64,000 nucleotides of DNA, taken from NCBI RefSeq assembly GCF_016584665.1, contig NZ_BBJB01000057.1, positions 62,001 to 126,000 on the forward strand. The letters run 5' to 3'. Within the stretch, counting starts at the first letter, position 1. The number at the start of each line of letters is the position of its first letter. Both the position numbers and the translations under genes were made by a program. Origin of the DNA: Pseudanabaena sp. lw0831 (GTDB lineage Bacteria; Cyanobacteriota; Cyanobacteriia; Pseudanabaenales; Pseudanabaenaceae). Below, in pieces: positions 45,201-58,527 of this stretch. A model generated the notes under the pieces. That model saw only the letters and a list, made by a program, of their open reading frames with translations. It had not been told where the DNA came from and searched no databases.

Positions 45201-45362
45201 TATTTTACAGCGAACTCTATAATATATGGATAATGGTAACTTATGTCAATATTTTTATAATTTACTTTAGTTAATCGCCTACGGTTAGCATTGCTAACCG
45301 TAGGCGATCGCTTGTGAAACGAACCTGAAATGAACCGCACCAAGTATTTGTAGCAATCTCGA
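45201..45362. other. Intergenic DNA with a perfect 17-bp hairpin
   Basis: ATCGCCTACGGTTAGCA (45274-45290) and its complement 45292-45308 form a loop-tight hairpin about 55 bp beyond the stop of the channel-like gene at 45363. It is a plausible terminator of the chemosensory/channel operon. Together with 45012-45200 it makes up the 351 bp between rpsM and that gene. Confidence 0.6.
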
Positions 45363-46394
45363 TTAGCCCACGATCGCCGCATAGGCGATGATAATCACAT
45401 TAAGAACGATAAACGAGATCGTAAACAACCGAAATAAAATATAGCGATCGAACCAAACCGCTTGCTTTCTTTTGCCATTTTCGTTGGTTATTCGTGAGAA
45501 TACGGTAGCAAGGGAGGCTGTAAAGATATAAACGATCGCAATAATGTGAATTTGATCGACCATAGTTAGGCTCTCGGTGCGTCCCAAAACCGATTCTGGG
45601 GCGCGCATATTCACTAAAACTGAAAATAAACATCCTACAAGCAAGCTTGTTCGAGCGCTAACCAAGCTAGGTTCTCCCGTTTCATAGAAAAATGACAGCA
45701 TTGCAACGGCAAAAGCAACATAGAGACCAGCGGTCAGTTTAAAGAAACTTGTATACTTGCTACGCTGAATTGGGATGGAAATCGTCAAACGGGAATGAAC
45801 TCCATCTTTGCCAATTAGCTCTGGGTCGCCAAAATTTGTCTTGTAGGAAACTTTAAGTTCTTCAAAGGTGAAGTCGGTAATATTCCATCCGCTTAACTTC
45901 ATATTGCGTTGATAACCAGAATTTTTAAAGTCAGGTGTATATATAAATTCAGAAGCATCTTGATCGGACTCTAAAGAAATTTTTAAGGTGTGACGATCAA
46001 ATGGATAGTTCTGGACATCCCAACTCTGATACAAGACGGCACTGATGTCTTTTTGAGACCAATAAACTTCACCCTTTGTGGAAAAGGACTCAGAAAGATT
46101 TTTTTTGTCAAGCGTAGTGATAGATATTTCATTGGATTCTAATGAATCAATGATTTCTATGTTTTCTAAAGGTTTAAGTTCTTTGACAGGGCAAACACTC
46201 CATAACCGAAAGTTAGCCGTAAATGATTTGTCTGCAAATTTAAAATTTCGCAAGGATGTAATATAAATTCCGATGCGACAAGTCTGGGGAGGTTTTACTG
46301 GATCTGCGATCGCATCTGGAACTCCTATAAGCATTAGCCAAGCGCTAATACATAAGAGTGAGATAAGAATAAATTTACAAGCTTTTAAGTACAA
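45363..46394 (-). CDS. Pentameric ligand-gated ion channel-like protein (Cys-loop receptor superfamily), paralogue B
   Basis: A 343-residue protein with a signal peptide (about residues 7-30). The beta-rich extracellular domain starts TCRIGIYITSLRNFKFADKS, and continues FRLWSVCP and the Pro-loop signature SWDVQNYPFDRHTLKISLES (as in GLIC YPFDxQTL), then KLSGWNITDFTFEELKVSYK and HSRLTISIPIQRSKYTSFFK leading into four C-terminal hydrophobic helices (AGLYVAFAVAMLSFFYETGE; SLLVGCLFSVLVN; QIHIIAIVYIFTASLATVFS; FRLFTISFIVLNVIIIAYAA). This is the GLIC/ELIC layout. Ligand and ion selectivity cannot be read from sequence. It is a tandem paralogue of the next gene. Confidence 0.72.
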   Translation of the reverse strand: MYLKACKFILISLLCISAWLMLIGVPDAIADPVKPPQTCRIGIYITSLRNFKFADKSFTANFRLWSVCPVKELKPLENIEIIDSLESNEISITTLDKKNLSESFSTKGEVYWSQKDISAVLYQSWDVQNYPFDRHTLKISLESDQDASEFIYTPDFKNSGYQRNMKLSGWNITDFTFEELKVSYKTNFGDPELIGKDGVHSRLTISIPIQRSKYTSFFKLTAGLYVAFAVAMLSFFYETGEPSLVSARTSLLVGCLFSVLVNMRAPESVLGRTESLTMVDQIHIIAIVYIFTASLATVFSRITNENGKRKQAVWFDRYILFRLFTISFIVLNVIIIAYAAIVG

Positions 46395-46433
46395 AATTAT
46401 GCCCTGACTTTAAGAGTAAACAAAAGAGTAAAT

Positions 46434-46472
46434 AATTAGCAATTAGAATTAGCGATTAGAATTAGCGATTAG
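46434..46472. repeat. ATTAGAATTAGCG tandem repeat between the channel-like paralogues
   Basis: AATTAGCAATTAG followed by two copies of the 13-mer ATTAGAATTAGCG. It overlaps the stop of paralogue A (46469-46471) and fills the short gap between the paralogues. Confidence 0.65.
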
Positions 46473-47533
46473 CCGACAATAATTGCGTAGGCGATCGCGA
46501 TGACATTAAACACGACAAACGAGATGGTAAACAGTTGAAAGAAAACGCGGCGATCGAGCCACATGGCAAACTTTTTATTGTTACTTTCAGAAGTTAGCCG
46601 AGAGTAGACTGATACAACGCCAGTTCCAAAAACATAGAGAATAGTGCCAATATGAATTTGGTCTATTAAGGTTAAGTCTTCGGTGCGACCTAAGACAGAT
46701 TCTTGTAAGCGCATACTTAACAAAGTGGCAAATAATGCCCCGATATAAATCGCTCTTCTCGGACTTGCTAAACTTGTATTACTAGAATCGTAGAAGAAAG
46801 ACAACATTGCAACTGCAAAGGCAATATAAACGCCAATAGTAAGCTTAAAGAAACTGAACATCTTAATCCGCTTTATATCAATTGAAATCACTATTCTTGA
46901 GTAACTTTCCTGCTGTGCAACTTGTTCTGGATTCCCAAAAGTAGTTGAGTAGGATATCTTTTGTTCGGCAATCTTAAACTTGGTAATTTGCCAACTGTCC
47001 AAATCAATATTTGGTTTGTATCCAGAGTTATCGAAGTCTGTTGTGTAAACAAACTCCGAGGAATTTTTAGTCGTCTCTTCAAAGGCGATCGTTAATGTGT
47101 GGCGATCAAAAGGGAAATTACTAACATTCCAACTCTGAGACAAAGTTGCTCGAACCTTGCGCCCCGACCAATAAACATTTTCCTGTACATCAAACCATTT
47201 TGATAGGTTTTTCCGCTCATCAGAACTATCATTTGCCACTTTAAAGTTTTTAAAGTCTTCAACATTAAGAACTTTCATACTTTTCAAAGGCTGTAACTCT
47301 TTGGATGGGCAGACACTCCATAAATAGAAATCTGTGCTAAACCTTTTGTCGGGTAGATTTAGATTGCGTAAAGACGCGACATAAACCCCAATTCTACAGG
47401 TTTGCGGTGGTTCAACTGTTGCGGCTAAAACCTCGGTTGAGTCCACAAATGACCATACGATGAGAATTATTGATAGACTCAGTAGCATTCTGAGCAATAT
47501 TCTAAAGTAATTTGAGAAGATCTTTTGTAACAT
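46469..47533 (-). CDS. Pentameric ligand-gated ion channel-like protein, paralogue A, directly after cheB
   Basis: A 354-residue protein from ATG 47533 (a GTG lies one codon earlier). Signal sequence at about residues 12-38; then PPQTCRIGVYVASLRNLNLP, YLWSVCPSKELQPL, Pro-loop SWNVSNFPFDRHTLTIAFEE, DSWQITKFKIAEQKISYSTT and YSRIVISIDIKRIKMFSFFK before four hydrophobic helices. It is co-linear with paralogue B, sharing the two N-terminal Cys, the FDRHTL loop and the ESVLGRTE(S/D)LT..DQIHI segment before M3. Only 6 bp separate it from the cheB stop, so co-transcription with the chemosensory operon is very likely. Confidence 0.72.
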   Translation of the reverse strand: MLQKIFSNYFRILLRMLLSLSIILIVWSFVDSTEVLAATVEPPQTCRIGVYVASLRNLNLPDKRFSTDFYLWSVCPSKELQPLKSMKVLNVEDFKNFKVANDSSDERKNLSKWFDVQENVYWSGRKVRATLSQSWNVSNFPFDRHTLTIAFEETTKNSSEFVYTTDFDNSGYKPNIDLDSWQITKFKIAEQKISYSTTFGNPEQVAQQESYSRIVISIDIKRIKMFSFFKLTIGVYIAFAVAMLSFFYDSSNTSLASPRRAIYIGALFATLLSMRLQESVLGRTEDLTLIDQIHIGTILYVFGTGVVSVYSRLTSESNNKKFAMWLDRRVFFQLFTISFVVFNVIAIAYAIIVG

Positions 47534-47539
47534 CACAGT

Positions 47540-48598
47540 TTAAATCACACGCTGGATTAAGCTTTTGGCGATCGCATCAGGCGACAGAATTTCCATAGCT
47601 GCATTTAACTGAACGGCGGCTTTTGGCATTCCGTAAACAATACAGCTTTTTTCATCCTGTGCGATCGTATGCCATCCCCGCGATCGCAAAACCTTGAGTC
47701 CTTCTGCTCCATCTTGTCCCATCCCTGTTAGCAATACCGCAATTTCTTTCTGATTCCAATGCTGCGATAAACTCTTAAAAAAGACATCCACTGATGGACG
47801 ATAGGGATAGTCAATTGGTTCTTTAATGTAATGCAATGTCAAATCTGCACGCAGACTCAGGTGATCATTAGTTCCCGCCACATGGACAATTCCTTTTTCT
47901 AAGCGATCGCCAGTCTTGGCTAAGCGCACCGTGAGCGGAGTTTGTTGATTTAGCCAATCGACTAGCCCTGCTGAAAATTGCATATCCACATGTTGGACGA
48001 TCGCGATCGCTGCGCCAAAGTTTTCTGGTAATCGAGATAGAATTGTCGCCAGAGCTTTAGGCCCACCTGTTGAGGAACCGATCGCGATTAGAGAAGGAAG
48101 TTTTAGAGATGGTGTGGTGAATGTAGTAAATTTTGAAGTTTGTAGTCTAGAAGTTAGAGTTGAAGTTTGAGTCTTAGAGGTTAATGTTGAAGTTGTGGAC
48201 GATCTGCCTATGAGCTTGCTCAAGGTCACGATTTTTGCCAATAATGGTTGAGCGGAATCGGAAATTCCTTGAACTCCTAAAATCGGTGTATCCACTGCAT
48301 CACGAGCACCATATCCCATCGCTTCAAAAACTTTTCCTGCGTTCTTGCCCACGCTTGCAGTTACGATCAAGATCGTGCAGGGAGACTGTTTCATGATTTG
48401 ACGAGTTGCCTCAACACCATCCATAATCGGCATAAATAAATCCATCAAGATCAAGTCGGGCTTATCTCTAGCACAACAAGCCACAGCCTCAGCGCCATCC
48501 CTTGCAATCCATGCAACTTGATAACTTGAAACGGTTAAAAGCACTCGTTTGAGCGCTTCAACTGCCATAGCTGTATCGTTGACGATCGCAATTCTCAT
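47540..48598 (-). CDS. cheB: Protein-glutamate methylesterase CheB (WspF-like)
   Basis: 352 residues. Receiver domain 1-120 with phospho-acceptor D53 in [20 protein letters not shown]; a Thr/Ser-rich linker (about 135-165); methylesterase domain with catalytic Ser in [14 protein letters not shown], His in IVQHVDMQF and Asp in [16 protein letters not shown]. It removes methyl groups from the receptors below. Last chemosensory gene of the operon, 79 bp after cheA-REC. Confidence 0.92.
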
Positions 48599-48677: not shown

Positions 48678-50921
48678 CTATCTGCCAATCAGATCGACGA
48701 TCGCATTTACCAGAGTGTCATCGTGAAAACTGCTTTTTGTGAGGTAATAATTTGCACCAGCTTCCATACCCTGAATGCGATCGTCTTCGCGATCGCGATA
48801 GGAGACAATAATTACAGGTAGGGTATGTAATTTCGGATGATCTTTGATTTGTTTGACCAGTTCAATTCCATTCATGCGTGGCATATCAATATCGCTGACC
48901 ACTAAATCATAGGGATTGCTGCGAATCGCCGTCCAAGCATCCATCCCATTTACGGCGACATCGACATCATAGCCGCGATTTTGTAAGAGTTTGCGGGTCA
49001 TTTCGCGAACGGTAATCGAATCATCGACTACCAAAATGCGTTTGCGATCGCTACCCTTAGCTTTTTTAGCTTTGTTGATATCAACGGGGCTTAATTGACC
49101 ACTGCTGAGCGCATTGTCTATGGAGCGGACCAAATCCGAAACATCGACAATCAGGACGGGTGAGCCATCATCCATTAGAGCCGAGGCGCTGATATCGCGA
49201 ACTTTGCCTAAACGCGGATCGAGCGGGCGGACTACGAGATCGCGCTCTCCGAGAAATTGGTCTACTAACAGTCCATAGGCATTGGCTTGATCGCTAATTA
49301 CGACTACACAAAGTGCATCGGAATCAGGCAAAGTTTCGGGCAGATCGAGAATGTGATGGGCGGCGATTAAGCCAATATTTTGACCATCCTTCGTGAAATA
49401 TTGACGACCTTCGACAATATAGATATCAGATTTTTCGAGTTTGACAATGCGATCTACCCTTGCTAGAGGGAAGGCGTAGGGTTCATCGGATATTTTTACA
49501 ATTAATGTTCTAACTACCGAGAGCGTGAGTGGAAGCTGAAAGTTGAAACTGGTTCCATTTTTAAATTGAGATATAGCCCGAATTGTGCCGCCGACTTCCT
49601 GTACCATGCTTTTGGCAATATCTAGCCCTACACCTCTTCCTGAGATTTCCGTTACCTGCTCGGTGGTTGAAAATCCTGATAGAAATAGGAATTCTATAAT
49701 TTCTGCTTCTGAGAGTTGTGCTGCCGTTTCAGGTGAAGCTAAATTGCGATCGATAACTTTTTGACGAATGCGCTCAGGATCGATTCCTCGTCCATCATCA
49801 GCAACTGTAATCGCCAACATACCGCCGCGATGGAATGCTTCTAAACGCACAGTGCCTTCCATCGATTTACCTGAGGCTTCGCGCTCTGCTGGCGATTCAA
49901 TGCCATGATCGATCGCATTCCGAATCATATGTGTAAGCGGCGCTTCGAGCTTTTTGAGAATATCGCGATCGACTAAAGTGGATTGACCGACAATCTGGAT
50001 CTTGACTTGTTTATCTAATTGTCGAGATAGGTCGCGCACCATACGCGGGAAGCCTTGCACACCATCGACAAAGGGACGCATATGGGAAGCAATTACTTCT
50101 CGATAGAGGCGATCGCTTAAGTTGGTAGTTCGCCGAGCATAAAGTTCTAGTTCGCTGAGGCGATCGGTGAGGATTTCGCGACATTCTTGGGCTTTGCGCC
50201 GCGCTGTATCGACAATCTGTTGATTTTCAGAACCAATTGGTGTATTTGCGATCGCTGTATGAATTGTTTCCAAAAGTCGAGCTAGTTCCGATTGACGAGA
50301 TTTGAGTAACGTGAAGGAATCGGCAAAGGGTTGCAACCAATTTGCTTCCACCAATGATTCACCCGCTAATCCCATAATCCGATTCAAATTTTCGGCAGTG
50401 ACTCGTACCACGCGATCGCTGGGTATGGTAATCGCTTCAAAAGTAACATTCTCTTGCCGTAGCCCTTTTCCTGTCTCCAAGCTTTGATCGACATTGACTA
50501 AAGATGACGGATGGAGCGTATCAAAATCAGTCGGCAAGAGGGCGGCGATCGCGGCACAACAAGCCTCAAACTGCCCTACGCGCTCGTTTAGCCATGCAAT
50601 TAAATCGATTTCGGCAATTTGGGCGATCGCTTGCAATAGATCAACACCTTGCAATAAGACATCAATTTCGTCTGAACCGAGAGTAATAATCTGATTCTGG
50701 GCAGCCACAAAACAATCTTCCATACGATGCGCCAACTGAATCAGTTTTTCAAGAGAAACAATTCTTGCCGCTCCCTTAATCGAATGCGCCGCTCGCATTA
50801 ACGCTTCTAAGACCTCCTCTGATTGAGGATTGGTTTCCAAAATCAATAGTCCCTGAGTCAGGATCGCCACCTGTGTCTCAGCTTCTTGCCGAAATAGCTC
50901 TAGCATCGAATCATCGCTCAT
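48678..50921 (-). CDS. cheA: CheA-type histidine kinase with C-terminal receiver (WspE-like)
   Basis: 747 residues. Hpt domain with H46 in LMRAAHSIKGAARI; linker; dimerisation and HATPase with N-box HMIRNAIDHGIESPAEREAS, VADDGRGIDPERIRQK and ISGRGVGLDIAKSMVQEVGG; CheW-like domain (YAFPLARVDRIVKLE); receiver with the acceptor Asp in DLVVSDIDMPRMNGIELVKQ. The short P1-P3 spacing and attached REC match WspE/hybrid CheA. Its start overlaps no gene; cheW lies 2 bp upstream. Confidence 0.93.
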   Translation of the reverse strand: MSDDSMLELFRQEAETQVAILTQGLLILETNPQSEEVLEALMRAAHSIKGAARIVSLEKLIQLAHRMEDCFVAAQNQIITLGSDEIDVLLQGVDLLQAIAQIAEIDLIAWLNERVGQFEACCAAIAALLPTDFDTLHPSSLVNVDQSLETGKGLRQENVTFEAITIPSDRVVRVTAENLNRIMGLAGESLVEANWLQPFADSFTLLKSRQSELARLLETIHTAIANTPIGSENQQIVDTARRKAQECREILTDRLSELELYARRTTNLSDRLYREVIASHMRPFVDGVQGFPRMVRDLSRQLDKQVKIQIVGQSTLVDRDILKKLEAPLTHMIRNAIDHGIESPAEREASGKSMEGTVRLEAFHRGGMLAITVADDGRGIDPERIRQKVIDRNLASPETAAQLSEAEIIEFLFLSGFSTTEQVTEISGRGVGLDIAKSMVQEVGGTIRAISQFKNGTSFNFQLPLTLSVVRTLIVKISDEPYAFPLARVDRIVKLEKSDIYIVEGRQYFTKDGQNIGLIAAHHILDLPETLPDSDALCVVVISDQANAYGLLVDQFLGERDLVVRPLDPRLGKVRDISASALMDDGSPVLIVDVSDLVRSIDNALSSGQLSPVDINKAKKAKGSDRKRILVVDDSITVREMTRKLLQNRGYDVDVAVNGMDAWTAIRSNPYDLVVSDIDMPRMNGIELVKQIKDHPKLHTLPVIIVSYRDREDDRIQGMEAGANYYLTKSSFHDDTLVNAIVDLIGR

Positions 50922-50923
50922 GA

Positions 50924-51667
50924 TTAAAAAACCTTGTGACTTAGGGTGTAAAACAATTGATCGGAATCCAAAAAGTTAATCTTCTTACCTTGCCAAGTGA
51001 CGACTCCTTTGGTATAAGCTTCCGATGCTTTGGAAATGACCACAGGCGCATCTTTAAATTCATTGAGATGGAAGCGATAAGTTCCATGCACCTCATCGAC
51101 AGGAAAGACCCACTTGTTCTCATTCTTGCCAGCGACAATCATCCTCTGAGGATTAATTGTATTTGTGAAATCTGCTGGTTCCGCGATCGACTCTAGACTG
51201 AGTAAATCTCTGAGCGAAATACAGAGTAATGTTTCTCCCCGAATATTGATTAATCCCAAAAATACTGAGTTACTGCGGTGTGGGACAGTGTGAATGGGAT
51301 AGGGCGTGGTTACTTCTTGGAGAATGTTAACAGGCAAGGCTAAGCGTTCGTTACCAAGTCGAAAGATAATCACCGAAAGCGTATCGGTGGCGCGAACTAG
51401 GGTTCCTTCACCGATTCCCGACTGATTAGTGGAAGCTTCTGACAAGATATCAGTCCATTCCTTGAGGTATTCAGGGGGTGCGTTACGTTCTAATAGGCTA
51501 CGTCCTGCTGCCGAGTATACTTTGCAGTTGCGACAATGAATGACTGTTTTTAATTCGCCACAGGTGCGATCGCCCATTACGCCAATTTGATTCCAGCAAT
51601 CATTGAGAGTCGGTTGGTCAAGTTCCGAATCATCAGGTATGGGTACTATATTCAAATGATTTTCCAT
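50924..51667 (-). CDS. CheW-domain adaptor with Cys-rich N-terminus (WspD-like)
   Basis: 247 residues. The first 55 residues contain CWNQIGVMGDRTCGELKTVI and HCRNCKVYSAAGRSLLERNA, a Cys-rich motif typical of Wsp-type CheW proteins. The CheW fold follows (VIIFRLGNERLALPVNILQE; VFLGLINIRGETLLCISLRD). It couples receptor signalling domains to CheA. It ends 2 bp before cheA. A repeat element separates it from the receptor gene upstream. Confidence 0.85.
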   Translation of the reverse strand: MENHLNIVPIPDDSELDQPTLNDCWNQIGVMGDRTCGELKTVIHCRNCKVYSAAGRSLLERNAPPEYLKEWTDILSEASTNQSGIGEGTLVRATDTLSVIIFRLGNERLALPVNILQEVTTPYPIHTVPHRSNSVFLGLINIRGETLLCISLRDLLSLESIAEPADFTNTINPQRMIVAGKNENKWVFPVDEVHGTYRFHLNEFKDAPVVISKASEAYTKGVVTWQGKKINFLDSDQLFYTLSHKVF

Positions 51668-51700
51668 TGGCTATTGTTCTCCATTTTTATACTATTGCTA

Positions 51701-52004
51701 AGATCCCCCCCCAGCCCCCCTTGTAAAGGGGGGAGAAGATAATTCAATTCTCTTTGCTTTATAAGCTAACGTATATACACAAGTCTCTCTGTCTTCGTTT
51801 TGATTTATTAAGAAATCCCCCAATTCTGGGGGACTTTGAAAGACTTTTATTTTCTTGTTCCCCCAGAGTTGGGGGCTAGGGGGCGATAAGGGCTTGGCTT
51901 GATTGGGTTTTATGACTTGTCTGTGCACGATAGCTTGTAAAGGAAAGGGGAGAGAATCGAAAATTATCTTCTTCCCCCTTTTTAAGGGTGATTGAGGGGG
52001 ATCT
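51701..52004. repeat. 304-bp inverted-repeat element (MITE-like) within the chemosensory operon
   Basis: Left end 51701-51744 (AGATCCCCCCCCAGCCCCCC, then TTGTAAAGGGGGGAGAAGAT) is an imperfect inverted copy of the right end 51961-52004 (reverse-complement AGATCCCCCTCAATCACCCT...GGGGGAAGAAGATAATT). Inside are further C/G-run hairpins (CCCCCAATTCTGGGGGA at 51815-51831; CCCCCAGAGTTGGGGG at 51859-51874). No target duplication is visible. It fills the 386-bp gap between the WspD-like cheW and the receptor gene. Confidence 0.7.
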
Positions 52005-52053
52005 AAACCTTGAAACGTAGTCAGAAGAACTTGTCTGTACATTATATTTAACA

Positions 52054-53808
52054 TCAGGCTATCACCTTAAATCTGGCAATTTCCGTCTTTAAAGTGTGAC
52101 TCGCTTCATCAAGCTGTCCTAAAGCATGATTAGTCTCACGCAATGAACCTGCGGTCTGCTGCGAGGCTTGACTGAGATGTTCCATTGCTTCACTGATTTG
52201 TTGCGCTCCTTGCGATTGTTCATCTACGCTCTGACTGACCTGCTCAAAGCGCGGAGTCAATCCCTGTACTTGCTGAATCACTTCTGCAATTTGTTCGCTA
52301 ATTCTGTCCACATCTTCAACGTTATGCACTACTGACTCGGTAAACTTATCCATTTCGGTTACACCAATGGAAACTGCTGATTGCATTTCCTTGATCATCT
52401 GCTCAATTTCCAGAGTTGCCACAGCCGTGCGATCGGCTAAGCGGCGAATTTCCCTTGCGACAACGGAGAAACCCGCCCCATATTCTCCTGCTCTTTCAGC
52501 TTCTAGCGCCGCGTTCAGGGAAAGCAAATTAGTTTGATCGGCGACAATCATGATCGTGGTCACGACGCGGCTGATATTGTTGGCGCGGGCGTTCATCACT
52601 TCTAGTTTGGAAGAAATAATTTGTGTACCTTCCAACAACTGTCCCATCACGGCATTGATGTGGTGCAGATTGTCTTTACTATTTGCTGCGGCGATCGTGG
52701 TTTGTTCCGCTGCCGCCGAAACCTGTTCCATCGTTTTTACCAATTGCTTTGATGTCGCAGCAATTTGGTGCGCGGTAGCCGATACTTCATTGGTAGAAGC
52801 AACCTGTTCGGCAACCGTGGCTTCTAAATCTCTGCCTGAAGCGGTAATGCGATCGGTGGAACTGGTGATTTGATTGCCAGACTTTTGAATGCGATTAACT
52901 AGGGTATTCAGGTCTTTATTCATCGTGTAAAAGACATTCTGTAATTGACCGACTTCATCTTCTTGTTCGGCAGGGGAAATCTCGCTCGTCAAATCCCCTG
53001 CGGAAATTTTGTGAGCGATGTCAACTACTCCTGCAATCTTCGCGCCTAGAGGTTTAGCGATCGTGTTGCTAAAGAAGATGCCAAATAAAATCGCAGTCCC
53101 AGGACCAATGATAATGGCGACAAAAGCCCAAAAGCCGACTTGAGAGACATCTTGCGCTGATATACTTTCGGTCTCTGAAGCAAGATCTTGATTAATCTTT
53201 AACAGGGCTAAAAGTAGATCGGTGGCGGCGGTGAAGGGTTGGCGGTTGATCTCAACTTGCTTTCCGAGATCGCTAAGTGTAGAAACGCTTGTAACTGGAT
53301 TTTTCACTGCATTTACAGGATTTGTCGCTGGATTTTCCAGTGGATTTATGACAGGGCTGGTAATTACGGGGCTAGCAACTCCACTATTTTCATACCTGAG
53401 ATTGATTCTTAAGAACTCTTCATGGGCTTTCTTCCATGCCTCCCACTTCTCTAGAAAAGCTTTATAGGTTTTCTTTTCAGTGTCCGACTTAGGAGTGGCT
53501 TCATATTGATAAAATCCCTCTTGAATTTGTTTCCAAGCATTATCCATGCGAGTGATCTCCGACTGTCGCCGATCCTTACTGAGATTAATATCTAGTAAAC
53601 CGCGCTCCGATGATTCAATCTGGGTTTTTCCTTCATTGATTTTCCATAGACTGGCAATGCTAGGGAGATTGTTTTTGGCTAAAGTATTGATATGTTTACT
53701 CAAGCGAGAACTACCGCTTAAACCCACCAAAGCAACAATTAATACCAAAACTCCCATAAAGAAGAAGGCAAAGAGGAGACGGGCTTGCATCGATTGATTT
53801 TTGAACAT
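52054..53808 (-). CDS. Methyl-accepting chemotaxis protein 2
   Basis: 584 residues. TM1 at about residues 10-32 ([20 protein letters not shown]); periplasmic four-helix-type sensor to about 222, with a short [20 protein letters not shown] repeat insert; TM2 near 225-248; HAMP to about 300; signalling domain with the hairpin-tip region [40 protein letters not shown] and [20 protein letters not shown]. It senses an unknown cue for the CheA below. It starts 1 bp from the cheR stop. Confidence 0.88.
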
Positions 53809-53809
53809 C

Positions 53810-55069
53810 TTAGGTTCCTCCTCCTAAACTAGAATTGGGAAGCCGTGATGCGATCGCCGACATTCTCTGTCGAATGATATTGGCTCCTGTTGTATCTCCC
53901 TGACTTTCCTTTAACAACGCAAGATGAATTAGGGCTTCATAGGAATTTGGCTCTAGATAAATAGCGCGTTGAAAGCATTGATCTGCTTTTTGGGATGCTT
54001 GAGGATTTTGGCGATCGGCTTGGTATAGCTCGCCTAAAAGTACATAAGCATCGGCACTGGTGGGATATTTTTCTAGATAGTTTTTACAAAGCGTGGTTGC
54101 ATCGATTAGTTTTCCTTCATTTGCTAGTTTTCTCACTACTGGTAAGTCGAGAGATGGGCTTGATTGAGCGCTTGAAATTGTAGATAAATGCATTTTGGGA
54201 ATTGTTTGCATATCTAGTGTGGTGGGAATTTGAGGAGGATTACTGAAATTAAGAGATGGTTTGATAGGGACTGGAGGGAGTTCCAACTTGCGATAGGCAA
54301 AGGTGAAGGGCTGACGAATGGAACTGTACTGCTCTGGGACGATTTTTCCAGTTTCCGAACCGCCCACAAATAACAATCCACCTGCGACAAGTAAGGGATC
54401 GATCGCTGCTAATACTTGCGTACAAACTTCTGGTTTGAGGTAGATCAATAAATTCCGACAAAAGATAATGTCATATTGCTTTTGATTAGTAGCTAAAGTC
54501 GTTATCACATTGCCTTGCTGAAAATTGACCAGATCACGAATAGATTTAGATAGCTCATAACCTTGATCATTTTGTTGAAAGTAATGCGATCGCTCCTGCC
54601 ATGCATCACCACGAAAGGAGTTTTTGGTATAAATACCACGCCGCGCCTTGGTAAGCGATCGCTGACTAATATCGATCGCATCGATTGTAAATTGTTTGGG
54701 TTGTAAACCTGCTTCGAGGAGAGAAATAGCGATCGAGTAAGGTTCTTCGCCCGTTGAGGATGGGACGCTCAGGAGTTGCAAAAGATTGCGGTTTGGTTTA
54801 AGTCGCCATTCTGTATTGACATAGGTTTTGAGATAATCAAAGGGTTTACCATCGCGAAAAAACCAAGTTTCTGGCACGATAATTAGTTCGATCAGTTCCT
54901 CTAATTCAATCGCCGAAGTTTGTAACCGCGTCCAATAGCGATCGATGTCAGGTAAATTACAGCTAACGCGCCGCGTCTCCACCGCCCTAGTAATTTGGCT
55001 AAGACCGACCACATCGGGATCTAAACCGATGGTTTGGCTGAGTAATTTGGTGATTTTAACTAAAGCCAT
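53810..55069 (-). CDS. cheR: CheR methyltransferase with C-terminal TPR (WspC-like)
   Basis: 419 residues. CheR N-domain (about 1-70); SAM-binding domain with the [20 protein letters not shown] motif, [20 protein letters not shown] and [11 protein letters not shown]; then a linker and TPR-type repeats at about 320-410 ([40 protein letters not shown]). It methylates receptor glutamates. The TPR tail is the WspC-type arrangement. It lies 20 bp after the upstream receptor gene. Confidence 0.9.
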
Positions 55070-55089: not shown

Positions 55090-56688
55090 TTAAGCAGTTT
55101 TGAACTGAGCAATTTCTAATCGTAATCGATTTGCCGCCTCGTCAAGCTGTCCTACCGCACCGTTGGTTTCTCGCAAAGCATTCACTGTCTGCTGCGATGC
55201 CTCAGTGAGTTGTCCCATCGCTTCACTAATTTGTTGCGCTCCCTGTGATTGTTCCTCAATGCTCTGACTCACCTGCTCAAAGCGTGGGGTCAATCCCTGC
55301 ACCTGTTGAATCACTTTCGCAACCTGATCGCTAATCTTGCTGACATCAGTAACGCTATCAACTACAGATTTATTAAACTTATCCATTTCCATGACACCTG
55401 TGGAAACTGCTGACTGCATCTCTTTGATCATCTGCGCGATTTCCAGTGTTGCCACGGCGGTTTGGTCAGCTAAGCGACGAATTTCACGGGCGACCACCGC
55501 AAAACCTGCGCCATATTCTCCTGCTTTTTCAGCTTCGATCGCCGCATTTAACGACAACAAATTCGTCTGGTCAGCCACTTTATTAATTGTTGTCACCACG
55601 CTATTAATATTGTTCGCCTTCTCATTCATTACCCCAAGTTTAGTAGCAATAGAAGTAGTAGCATCGGAAAGTTGACGCATGACCGTACCCATGCGGTTCA
55701 GATCGGTTTGACTCGCACCTGCCTCAGTTGCAGTCGAATGCGCCATCAGCGCCACCTGCTCCATGACTCTGACTAATTCTTTGGAATTTGCCGCAATTTG
55801 ATTAGATGTAGCATTCACCTCATTAGTGGAAGCAAGTTGTTCGACAACAGTAGCTTCTAATTCTTTACCTGCGGCGGCGATTTGGGTGGAAGAGGTACTA
55901 ATCTGTACTCCCGATTTTTGCATCTGAAGAACTAGTAAATTCAACTTTTTGGACATATTGTGAAACGCAGCCATTAACTTGCCAACTTCGCTCGGATCGT
56001 TGCTTAGCTCAATGGTTTGTTGTAAATCGCCATCGGCAATCTGCTCGGCGGCTTGGACTACTTTTGGTAATTGACGTTGCAGTGGTAAAGCAATCCATAG
56101 GGCGATCGCGATCGTGATTACCGTCACCAACAAAGTTCCCAACAAAATTACTAGGTTTACTAAGTTTTTGGCTTGTTCTGCTTCGCGAATATTATCGTTA
56201 AGTCGATTTTCGAGAATCTTCAGAACGCGCAGACGCGCCTCATCAAGTTTGGCAAGGCGCGGCGTTAAAATTTCCCGTTTCGCATCGTCCAATTTATTGT
56301 CATCAACAAGGGGATAAACTCTGGCGGCAACGCGATCGAATTCATCACCAAGTTGGAGCATCTCATTGATCGAGTCTTGAGCTTTGGCATCAACTACCTT
56401 TACCAAATCCTGCCTATTTTGGGTCATCGATTCTCGCGCCTTATCATAGGTTCCGCGATAGTACTGGTCTTTTGGATAAAGAGCATAACCGCGAATACTG
56501 GCAATCACCCTAGACACATCATAGGCAAACTCATTGGTATCCTTGATGTTTTGGGCAACTTGCCTTGAGTCATCCTGCAATTTGATGAGGTTAGCCGTAC
56601 TTGAATAGATAATCGTTCCCAACACGATTAGGAACAGAATTGGCAGTGAGAAGCCTAAAATGAGACGATTGGTAATTTTATTCAACAT
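55090..56688 (-). CDS. Methyl-accepting chemotaxis protein 1
   Basis: 532 residues. TM1 at about residues 9-33 (LILGFSLPILFLIVLGTIIY); periplasmic helical sensor to about 175; TM2 about 178-200 (LVILLGTLLVTVITIAIALW); HAMP; signalling domain with [20 protein letters not shown] and [20 protein letters not shown]. The signalling half is close to that of the receptor at 52054, so the two probably arose by duplication with divergent sensors. Confidence 0.9.
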   Translation of the reverse strand: MLNKITNRLILGFSLPILFLIVLGTIIYSSTANLIKLQDDSRQVAQNIKDTNEFAYDVSRVIASIRGYALYPKDQYYRGTYDKARESMTQNRQDLVKVVDAKAQDSINEMLQLGDEFDRVAARVYPLVDDNKLDDAKREILTPRLAKLDEARLRVLKILENRLNDNIREAEQAKNLVNLVILLGTLLVTVITIAIALWIALPLQRQLPKVVQAAEQIADGDLQQTIELSNDPSEVGKLMAAFHNMSKKLNLLVLQMQKSGVQISTSSTQIAAAGKELEATVVEQLASTNEVNATSNQIAANSKELVRVMEQVALMAHSTATEAGASQTDLNRMGTVMRQLSDATTSIATKLGVMNEKANNINSVVTTINKVADQTNLLSLNAAIEAEKAGEYGAGFAVVAREIRRLADQTAVATLEIAQMIKEMQSAVSTGVMEMDKFNKSVVDSVTDVSKISDQVAKVIQQVQGLTPRFEQVSQSIEEQSQGAQQISEAMGQLTEASQQTVNALRETNGAVGQLDEAANRLRLEIAQFKTA

Positions 56689-56703: not shown

Positions 56704-57174
56704 TTAGGTAGTAATCGAATCGCGATCGCCCATCAGCAAATAATTATGTCGCTCATCACTGAAAAGTTTCTCAAGCTGCACACATTGAATAATTCTCTTC
56801 TCATCAACAATCGTACCGCTTAAATAAGGCGCTTCCTCAACCCGAATATTAGAATCATGAATATCGGCATTGGAGATACTCAAAGTCTCCGTCACCCGCT
56901 CCGCCATCAGCCCTAAATATTGCAGCGATTGGTTTTGCTGTGGATATTTGACGATAATGATCCGCGTACTGAGATGAGGACGACTGGGGCTTCCTTGGAT
57001 CAAATGGCAAAGATCGATCACGGGCAAGATTACGCCTCGATAGTTAAATAGACCAGCCACATAGTCGGGAACATGATGTACCTTTCTAAAACTAACTCGC
57101 GGAATCACTTCAACAATATAAGAACTGTCGATCGCATAGAGGTCTTTGCCAGCATAGAAAAGTAGAATTAGCAC
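56704..57174 (-). CDS. CheW adaptor protein (WspB-like)
   Basis: 156 residues, single CheW fold: MLILLFYAGKDLYAIDSSYI, VEVIPRVSFRKVHHVPDYVA, GLFNYRGVILPVIDLCHLIQ and STRIIIVKYP. Probable first gene of the Wsp-like operon, 15 bp before the first receptor. Together with the second CheW (50924) it matches the two-adaptor layout of Wsp clusters. Confidence 0.88.
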   Translation of the reverse strand: MLILLFYAGKDLYAIDSSYIVEVIPRVSFRKVHHVPDYVAGLFNYRGVILPVIDLCHLIQGSPSRPHLSTRIIIVKYPQQNQSLQYLGLMAERVTETLSISNADIHDSNIRVEEAPYLSGTIVDEKRIIQCVQLEKLFSDERHNYLLMGDRDSITT

Positions 57175-57594: not shown

Positions 57595-58527
57595 ATGCAT
57601 CAGATTGATATCAAAGAAATCGACTTAAATCTGTTAAATATTTTAAAAGTTCTCCTTGATGAAGTTAGCGTTACTAAAGCCAGTGAAAAACTGAGCTTAA
57701 GTCAATCCGCAACTAGTCATGCTTTACAACGATTGCGAAAAATGTTTAACGATCCATTGCTAGAGCGATCGGCATCGGGTATGCGTCCCACCCCTAGAGC
57801 GATCGCCATACGAGCATCCCTTAGAAATATCCTTCTGAATATCGAACAGCTAGTGGCAGAACCGATTTTTGTCCCAGCCTTAGCCGAAGTCACAATTCAC
57901 ATCGCCTCGTCAGACTATGGAACCACCGTCATTCTTCCCTCAGTTATAAAACAGCTTTCTCTCTCTAGTCCTTCTATTAATGTAGAGATTGATGGATCGC
58001 ATACCGACATTTTTGGAAAGCTCAAAGATGGAAAAATCGATCTCGGCTTAGGGGTATTTGATCTGGATGGAACCAAGGGATTTAAGACTCAAAATTTATT
58101 TACAGAACGTTTTGTATCCATCGTCAGAGATGATCATCCTATTCTTGAAGATATTACGCTTGAGTCCTATATTACTTCGCCACATACTTTAATCACCACT
58201 ACAGGTTCACCATTGCCCGAAACCAATAAATTATTTAAAAGTCATGTCGATAGCAAGTTAGAAGAATTAGGAGTCAAACGGCGATTGATGCTAAAATTAC
58301 CGCATTTTCTATCTGCGGCTCTCATTATTGGTCAAACTGATCTTATTTTGACTTTACCGCGCCGTATTGCTTCACTTCTAGCGAGTTTTGCTAATGTAAC
58401 CATGTTTGACCCACCGATTGATTTAGGTGAATATAACTATATGCAAGTTTGGTCTGAACATAGCAATAACAGTCCATTTCATATATGGCTACGCAATCTT
58501 GTCTATTCCCAATCTCAAAATATTTAA
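57595..58527 (+). CDS. LysR family transcriptional regulator
   Basis: 310 residues. N-terminal winged HTH: LNLLNILKVLLDEVSVTKAS, EKLSLSQSATSHALQRLRKM, FNDPLLERSASGMRPTPRAI. The periplasmic-binding-like effector domain follows (about 90-300; VTIHIASSDYGTTVILPSVI). The HTH and the SHALQRLR signature place it near the NodD/SyrM-like branch. It is divergent from the chemosensory operon and could control it or a gene elsewhere; no effector can be named. Confidence 0.85.
   Translation: MHQIDIKEIDLNLLNILKVLLDEVSVTKASEKLSLSQSATSHALQRLRKMFNDPLLERSASGMRPTPRAIAIRASLRNILLNIEQLVAEPIFVPALAEVTIHIASSDYGTTVILPSVIKQLSLSSPSINVEIDGSHTDIFGKLKDGKIDLGLGVFDLDGTKGFKTQNLFTERFVSIVRDDHPILEDITLESYITSPHTLITTTGSPLPETNKLFKSHVDSKLEELGVKRRLMLKLPHFLSAALIIGQTDLILTLPRRIASLLASFANVTMFDPPIDLGEYNYMQVWSEHSNNSPFHIWLRNLVYSQSQNI

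Follow-up and report, generated by a model that had tools for sequence, protein, structure and literature searches.

Two channel genes at the end of a chemosensory operon

We have analysed a window of 64,000 nucleotides from Pseudanabaena sp. lw0831, in which two non-identical open reading frames lie in tandem, at the place where an earlier note, made from the letters of the DNA, had described two homologues of pentameric ligand-gated ion channels (pLGICs). Both frames, named here subunits alpha and beta, are on the minus strand and share 49% identity across 346 positions. They stand at the 3΄ end of an operon of the order CheW-MCP-CheR(TPR)-MCP-CheW-CheA(REC)-CheB; neither the strand nor this che operon directly upstream had been mentioned before (Table 1). 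The ATG of alpha lies 6 nt from the cheB stop and beta is spaced 74 nt from alpha, and the whole array may be transcribed as one unit. The inverted repeat 3΄ of beta is a possible operon end; scans of promoter and terminator consensus sequences returned matches that were no better than those in shuffled sequences.

The gene order of the Pseudomonas wsp cluster served for comparison with the operon. The Wsp-type components, namely CheR-TPR, two CheW, CheA-REC, CheB and MCP, are all present, and we use the term Wsp-like, and not Wsp system, because WspR (REC-GGDEF) is absent. The make-up is that of a Wsp-like, alternative-function chemosensory cluster, CheR-TPR being typical of clusters of this class (PMC3447774). 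The LysR-type regulator has an orthologue (66–67%) in Planktothrix, which is also divergent and upstream of a channel-che operon. Between CheW2 and MCP2 there is a 118-aa ORF (51698–52054), rich in PPQSPLKRG / SPPFTRGAGGGS, which resembles a dispersed repeat and is missing at the equivalent place in P. frigida.

Table 1. Genes and features of the channel-chemosensory locus, in window positions
Feature	Position	Strand	Remarks
17-bp inverted repeat, perfect	45274..45308		55 nt 3΄ of beta stop
pLGIC subunit beta	45363..46394	-	TTG start, 343 aa
pLGIC subunit alpha	46469..47536	-	355 aa from GTG; 354 aa from ATG 47533
CheB (REC + methylesterase)	47540..48598	-	Pfam; 96% identity in P. frigida
CheA hybrid kinase (one Hpt, HATPase, CheW, C-terminal REC)	48678..50921	-	Pfam; tree
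CheW2	50924..51667	-	Pfam
MCP2 (4HB_MCP_1 periplasmic bundle, MCP signalling domain)	52054..53808	-	Pfam
CheR with TPR	53810..55069	-	Pfam
MCP1 (HAMP, MCP signalling domain)	55090..56688	-	Pfam
CheW1, first gene of the operon	56704..57174	-	Pfam
LysR-type regulator, divergent to operon	57595..58527	+	

Alpha and beta are members of the pLGIC superfamily

Taken as single sequences, alpha and beta gave moderate evidence of membership in the superfamily. The Pfam model PF02931 (Neur_chan_LBD) matched alpha with an E value of 2.4e-5 and beta with 0.0088, both below the curated cut-off of Pfam, and the NCBIfam LIC/LGIC_1 match to the channels was likewise under its cut-off; phmmer searches of the PDB retrieved GLIC for beta (E 1e-6) and the nematode DEG-3 for alpha (E 2e-5). 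A family profile (A3) built from 31 relatives matched GLIC, ELIC and a GLIC-GlyR chimera with E values of 1e-13 to 1e-16 over nearly the full chain, the chimera being the best match, and judged by all these search values the resemblance to pLGICs is not due to chance. The AlphaFold2 models of alpha and beta (pLDDT 88.2 and 87.7) both show an N-terminal helix, which is signal-like, a beta-sandwich and four C-terminal helices, the second helix of beta with a one-residue break; this is the architecture that had been read from the sequence as a signal peptide, a beta-rich domain and four hydrophobic helices. In structural alignments the models superimpose on GABA-A, GluCl and GLIC subunits with Z scores of about 24 over about 280 residues (23.9 and 24.2 over 280–282 residues to GABA-A/GLIC), and an unrelated extracellular fold, the refuting outcome named beforehand, did not arise. 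The homology proposed in the earlier note is thus supported by the sequence profile and by the predicted whole-chain fold, and on these two bases we regard the membership of both subunits as settled. The remark that prokaryotic relatives are few is outdated, since the profile matches 44 of 386 sampled cyanobacterial genomes. Viral contigs, scanned with alignment A1, contained no relatives.

The short motifs that had been pointed out are also in place: the Pro-loops NFPFDRHTL and NYPFDRHTL, the strand motifs SWQITKF and GWNITDF, and the N-terminal cysteines of TCRIG and WSVCP. In the A3 alignment the Pro-loop PFD is invariant (31/31; FPFD / YPFD in alpha/beta), as are the pre-M1 Arg (R222) and, in M2, Arg 0΄ and Phe 9΄. 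Among pLGICs the Pro of the [F/Y]PxD Pro-loop occurs in 100% and the pre-M1 Arg in 94%, a cationic 0΄ residue in 79%, and Leu or Phe at 9΄ in 75% and 13%, respectively (PMC4795631). A register with Leu at 9΄, given by single-sequence phmmer against GLIC, was dropped; the family register is preferred because it is gap-free through M2-M3 and agrees with the profile alignment to the M2 of GlyR. Alpha and beta have Gly in place of Pro at M1 14΄ and at 23΄ of the M2-M3 loop, positions where Pro and Gly reach 77% and 5% (M1) and 88% and 3% (M2-M3) among pLGICs; Gly at both is a listed minor substitution, so membership stands (PMC4795631), and with both transmembrane prolines replaced gating may differ. 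At -2΄/-1΄/0΄ the pore starts with SPR, SAR, GPR or GSR in the alpha/beta lineages and with GDR in the Planktothrix members, and both subunits have Arg at 16΄.

Both N-terminal cysteines are present in 25 of the 31 relatives and both absent in six, two of these six rows being cut at the first position; no row has a single one. In the AlphaFold2 model they sit on the two strands that make up the first extracellular-domain hairpin (E44–59, E64–75), which makes a disulfide between them likely, predicted as C46–C75 in alpha. They are not the Cys-loop: the pair flanking the Pro-loop, a trait of metazoan Cys-loop receptors, is absent in alpha and beta.

The channel adjoins the same operon in diverse cyanobacteria

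A profile scan of 84,980 genomes with alignment A2 yielded 30 related loci. In 12 of the 14 that are cyanobacterial (L069–L082), the channel adjoins the same che operon, and the association spans CheA divergence down to 61%. The 12 loci belong to P. frigida, Nostoc 106C, UBA11153, S06, five Planktothrix/Oscillatoriales and three Microcoleus/Oscillatoriales. Channel copies are in tandem in Nostoc 106C, S06 and two of the Microcoleus/Oscillatoriales, and single in the five Planktothrix/Oscillatoriales; the third Microcoleus/Oscillatoriales locus (L080) is fragmentary. The channels lie upstream of CheW1, at the 5΄ end of the operon, in all associated loci except Pseudanabaena, where they are at the 3΄ end. 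P. frigida ULC066 (G011) has the same seven che genes (76–97% identical) followed by alpha and beta (75–76% each), in a genomic setting different from that of the window. The tandem is found in only two of 26 genomes of the genus, the same two that alone have this CheB (>90% identity), and two other genomes of the genus have a sister operon.

The two remaining cyanobacterial cases, both draft bins, are Chamaesiphon, where alpha and beta have flanks free of che genes and the genome bin lacks a CheB match, and Prochloron, whose channel has neither a che operon in its flanks nor a CheB match in its genome bin. At L083, a cyanobacterial locus of more distant relationship, no che operon of this kind is seen. 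Nor do the non-cyanobacterial relatives lie near such che genes, and this operon is likewise missing from the neighbourhoods checked for cyanobacterial pLGICs of types B and C (L007, L016, L008, L060–L068).

Several further observations were made in these genomes. The genus has another type of pLGIC, whose conserved position is shared by two species and is away from any che operon (L016 1471–2469, L007 1474–2502). Tandem pLGICs of 775 and 760 aa, with a long N-terminal part that resembles a periplasmic binding protein, are found at L009 1291–3618 and L015 1366–3648 (G006); in the genome of the window a 764-aa open frame matches the channel profile (G000:C49:13217–13744). The Streptomyces and Streptosporangium relatives (L094, L096) have common channel neighbours, another conserved, non-che context. 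In Planktothrix operons, a gene pair of the CrcB/Fluc type (fluoride channel family) lies between the LysR and channel genes (L077 9000–9865; likewise L074, L078 and L058, with the contig end reached in L075 and L059). The operon of P. rubescens PCC 7821 looks damaged, because cheB is split into two pieces in different frames (L165 288–1047) and is separated from cheA by a probable transposase ORF. An IS5-like transposase ORF, probably partial, is located just upstream of the P. frigida che cluster (L021 6974–7351) and may bear on how that cluster moved.

An old alpha/beta pair in an operon of mixed history

The channel tree resolves alpha and beta as separate clades (bootstrap 100/100 and 100/99), each of which holds two Pseudanabaena, Chamaesiphon and Nostoc 106C; four genomes, which represent three families, retain the two genes together in the order alpha-beta. 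Because both clades hold the same genomes, the duplication predates the splits between Pseudanabaena, Chamaesiphon and Nostoc; the tandems of S06 and Microcoleus are separate, more recent duplications. The earlier note had suggested a heteromeric channel or two ligand specificities, and this idea is made more likely by the phylogeny, since alpha and beta are separate orthologous lineages that have been kept together.

The CheA tree places Pseudanabaena with Planktothrix (100/100), which also have the divergent LysR in common, whereas in the channel tree Pseudanabaena groups with Nostoc and Chamaesiphon, and the Planktothrix channels fall in a different lineage. It follows from this conflict that, within the operon, one channel was exchanged for another or that losses differed between lineages. 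Given that the channel can also be at either operon end, the link between them has outlasted a replacement or rearrangement, and every operon seen in this CheA clade carries a channel.

Channel operons lack WspR and one CheA Hpt domain

Of the 386 sampled cyanobacterial genomes, 24 have this kind of CheB. At ten channel-free loci with CheA and CheB, a WspR-like REC-GGDEF gene is beside cheB or one gene away from it (the sister operons L026, L125, L126, L128–L131, L134, L136 and L137), and three further channel-free loci have the WspR-CheB pair without CheA; one channel-free locus (L135) has neither a WspR-like gene nor a channel close by. No WspR-like gene was found in the window, nor within 4–20 kb downstream of cheB in the channel operons L138 and L159–L165. 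GGDEF matches elsewhere in channel-bearing genomes were generic and were rejected as WspR; the sole close WspR-like match among them (62%) lies in the S06 genome, in a second cluster that has no channel. CheA-less second clusters with adjacent WspR-like and CheB genes are seen at L132 9526–11737 (S06 genome), L127 and L133, where the small ORFs downstream are alike between loci.

The CheA proteins differ as well, with two Hpt domains in the WspR operons (6/6 tested) and one in the channel operons (4/4). All 11 channel operons fall on one side of a branch in the tree of CheA (85/78), and support rises to 100/100 for the ten without UBA11153. The WspR-exclusion and Hpt counts are not independent events, and would fit a single rewiring with long retention afterwards.

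A possible receptor role for the channel

What could a pLGIC do in a chemosensory operon? On balance we think it probable that the channel is a periplasmic ligand sensor, an extra ion-channel receptor that feeds the Wsp-like pathway of the operon. A small solute or ion would bind to the periplasm-facing channel and the pore would open (or close); through the ensuing flux of ions or change in voltage, signalling by CheA and both MCPs would be altered, with CheR and CheB providing adaptation. The channel, in which alpha and beta would most likely assemble together, would act as an additional receptor in operons that have neither the WspR diguanylate cyclase nor one of the CheA Hpt domains. The co-inheritance of channel and operon argues for a joint function and the retained pore pattern argues for conduction; the channels of Chamaesiphon and Prochloron, and the non-cyanobacterial relatives, all away from such che genes, speak against a receptor role. 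Coupling could also run in the opposite direction, from the pathway to the channel. We advance only tentatively the stronger idea that a heteromeric alpha/beta channel is the dedicated electrical receptor of the chemosensory kinase array and replaces the c-di-GMP output machinery.

We consider it unlikely that the channel is instead an output that took the place of WspR. In such a scheme CheA-P and CheB-P would control its opening, and the pathway would target the ion balance or the voltage across the membrane. The protein excluded by the channel is itself an output protein, and in the window the channel stands at the WspR position after cheB, as such a role would lead one to expect; in most operons, however, the channel gene is at the 5΄ end, away from the WspR place, and control by phosphotransfer is argued against by the cytoplasmic M3-M4 loop, which is very short and contains neither a receiver nor a phosphotransfer domain. 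Just as improbable in our view is that the channel genes are passengers, merely sharing the transcription or mobility of the operon. Adjacency to the same operon in 12 of 14 loci, at either end and across CheA divergence down to 61%, together with the exclusion of WspR and the Hpt difference, weighs against this, although the patchy distribution, a probable horizontal spread and the two genomes with channels but no operon would be in keeping with it. The least likely alternative is a pLGIC fold retained as a non-conducting receptor in direct contact with the MCP array, for which the change of two transmembrane prolines to Gly in the cyanobacterial members and the tight co-inheritance with two MCPs might be adduced, but which fits poorly with the Arg 0΄ and Phe 9΄ pattern kept in all 31 sequences.

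Comparison with known systems

GLIC and ELIC serve as structural models, and the cellular role of bacterial pLGICs is little understood. Alpha and beta are like GLIC, the proton-gated channel of Gloeobacter violaceus, and ELIC in the full-chain fold, the Pro-loop, the pre-M1 Arg, the four transmembrane helices, the short M3-M4 loop and the lack of Cys-loop cysteines, at about 16–19% identity in the structural alignment. Unlike them, they have Arg 0΄, Phe 9΄, Gly at the proline positions of M1 and the M2-M3 loop, and an N-terminal Cys pair, and they come as two subunits in a chemosensory operon. The subunits of the glycine and GABA-A receptors, which are anion-selective Cys-loop receptors, have the same fold (Z about 24), and the M2 start SPR/SAR/GPR of alpha/beta resembles the PAR motif of anion channels, a motif type without Glu at -1΄, with GDR instead in the Planktothrix members; in contrast to these receptors, alpha and beta have neither the Cys-loop disulfide nor a large intracellular domain.

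The Pseudomonas Wsp surface-sensing system and the similar cyanobacterial operons share with the channel operon CheR-TPR, two CheW, CheA-REC, CheB and a 4HB-type MCP. The channel operon differs from Wsp by the absence of the WspR diguanylate cyclase and the presence of the channel, and its CheA has one Hpt where that of the WspR-bearing cyanobacterial operons has two. In the literature searched, which covered few subscription papers or preprints and whose silence is weak evidence, no pLGIC was found to be described as part of a che operon; as far as found, this is the first direct gene-neighbourhood link between pLGICs and a bacterial chemosensory pathway. To our knowledge, there is no heteromeric prokaryotic pLGIC and none with a known physiological pathway, and if the stronger idea of a heteromeric electrical receptor is true this channel would, as far as is known, be the first of both kinds.

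Bacterial LGICs have been proposed as chemotaxis receptors from their domain and neighbour context (Tasneem et al. 2004, PMC549065). The prokaryotic LGICs in the accessible part of that article have PBP, Cache or MCP-N domains or neighbours, and che-gene neighbours are unreported there, whereas alpha and beta adjoin a complete che operon (PMC549065). Already known from such sources are the superfamily itself, its occurrence in cyanobacteria and the suggestion that it has a role in chemotaxis (PMC4795631, PMC549065); new, as far as the literature searched shows, are the che-operon context, the exclusion of WspR, the concordant change in CheA and the conserved alpha/beta pair. With channels beside a complete che operon, retained through transfer and rearrangement and excluding the diguanylate cyclase of the sister operons, the 2004 hypothesis can now be put to a direct test in cultures of Planktothrix, Nostoc or Pseudanabaena, and alpha and beta offer a natural two-subunit prokaryotic channel.
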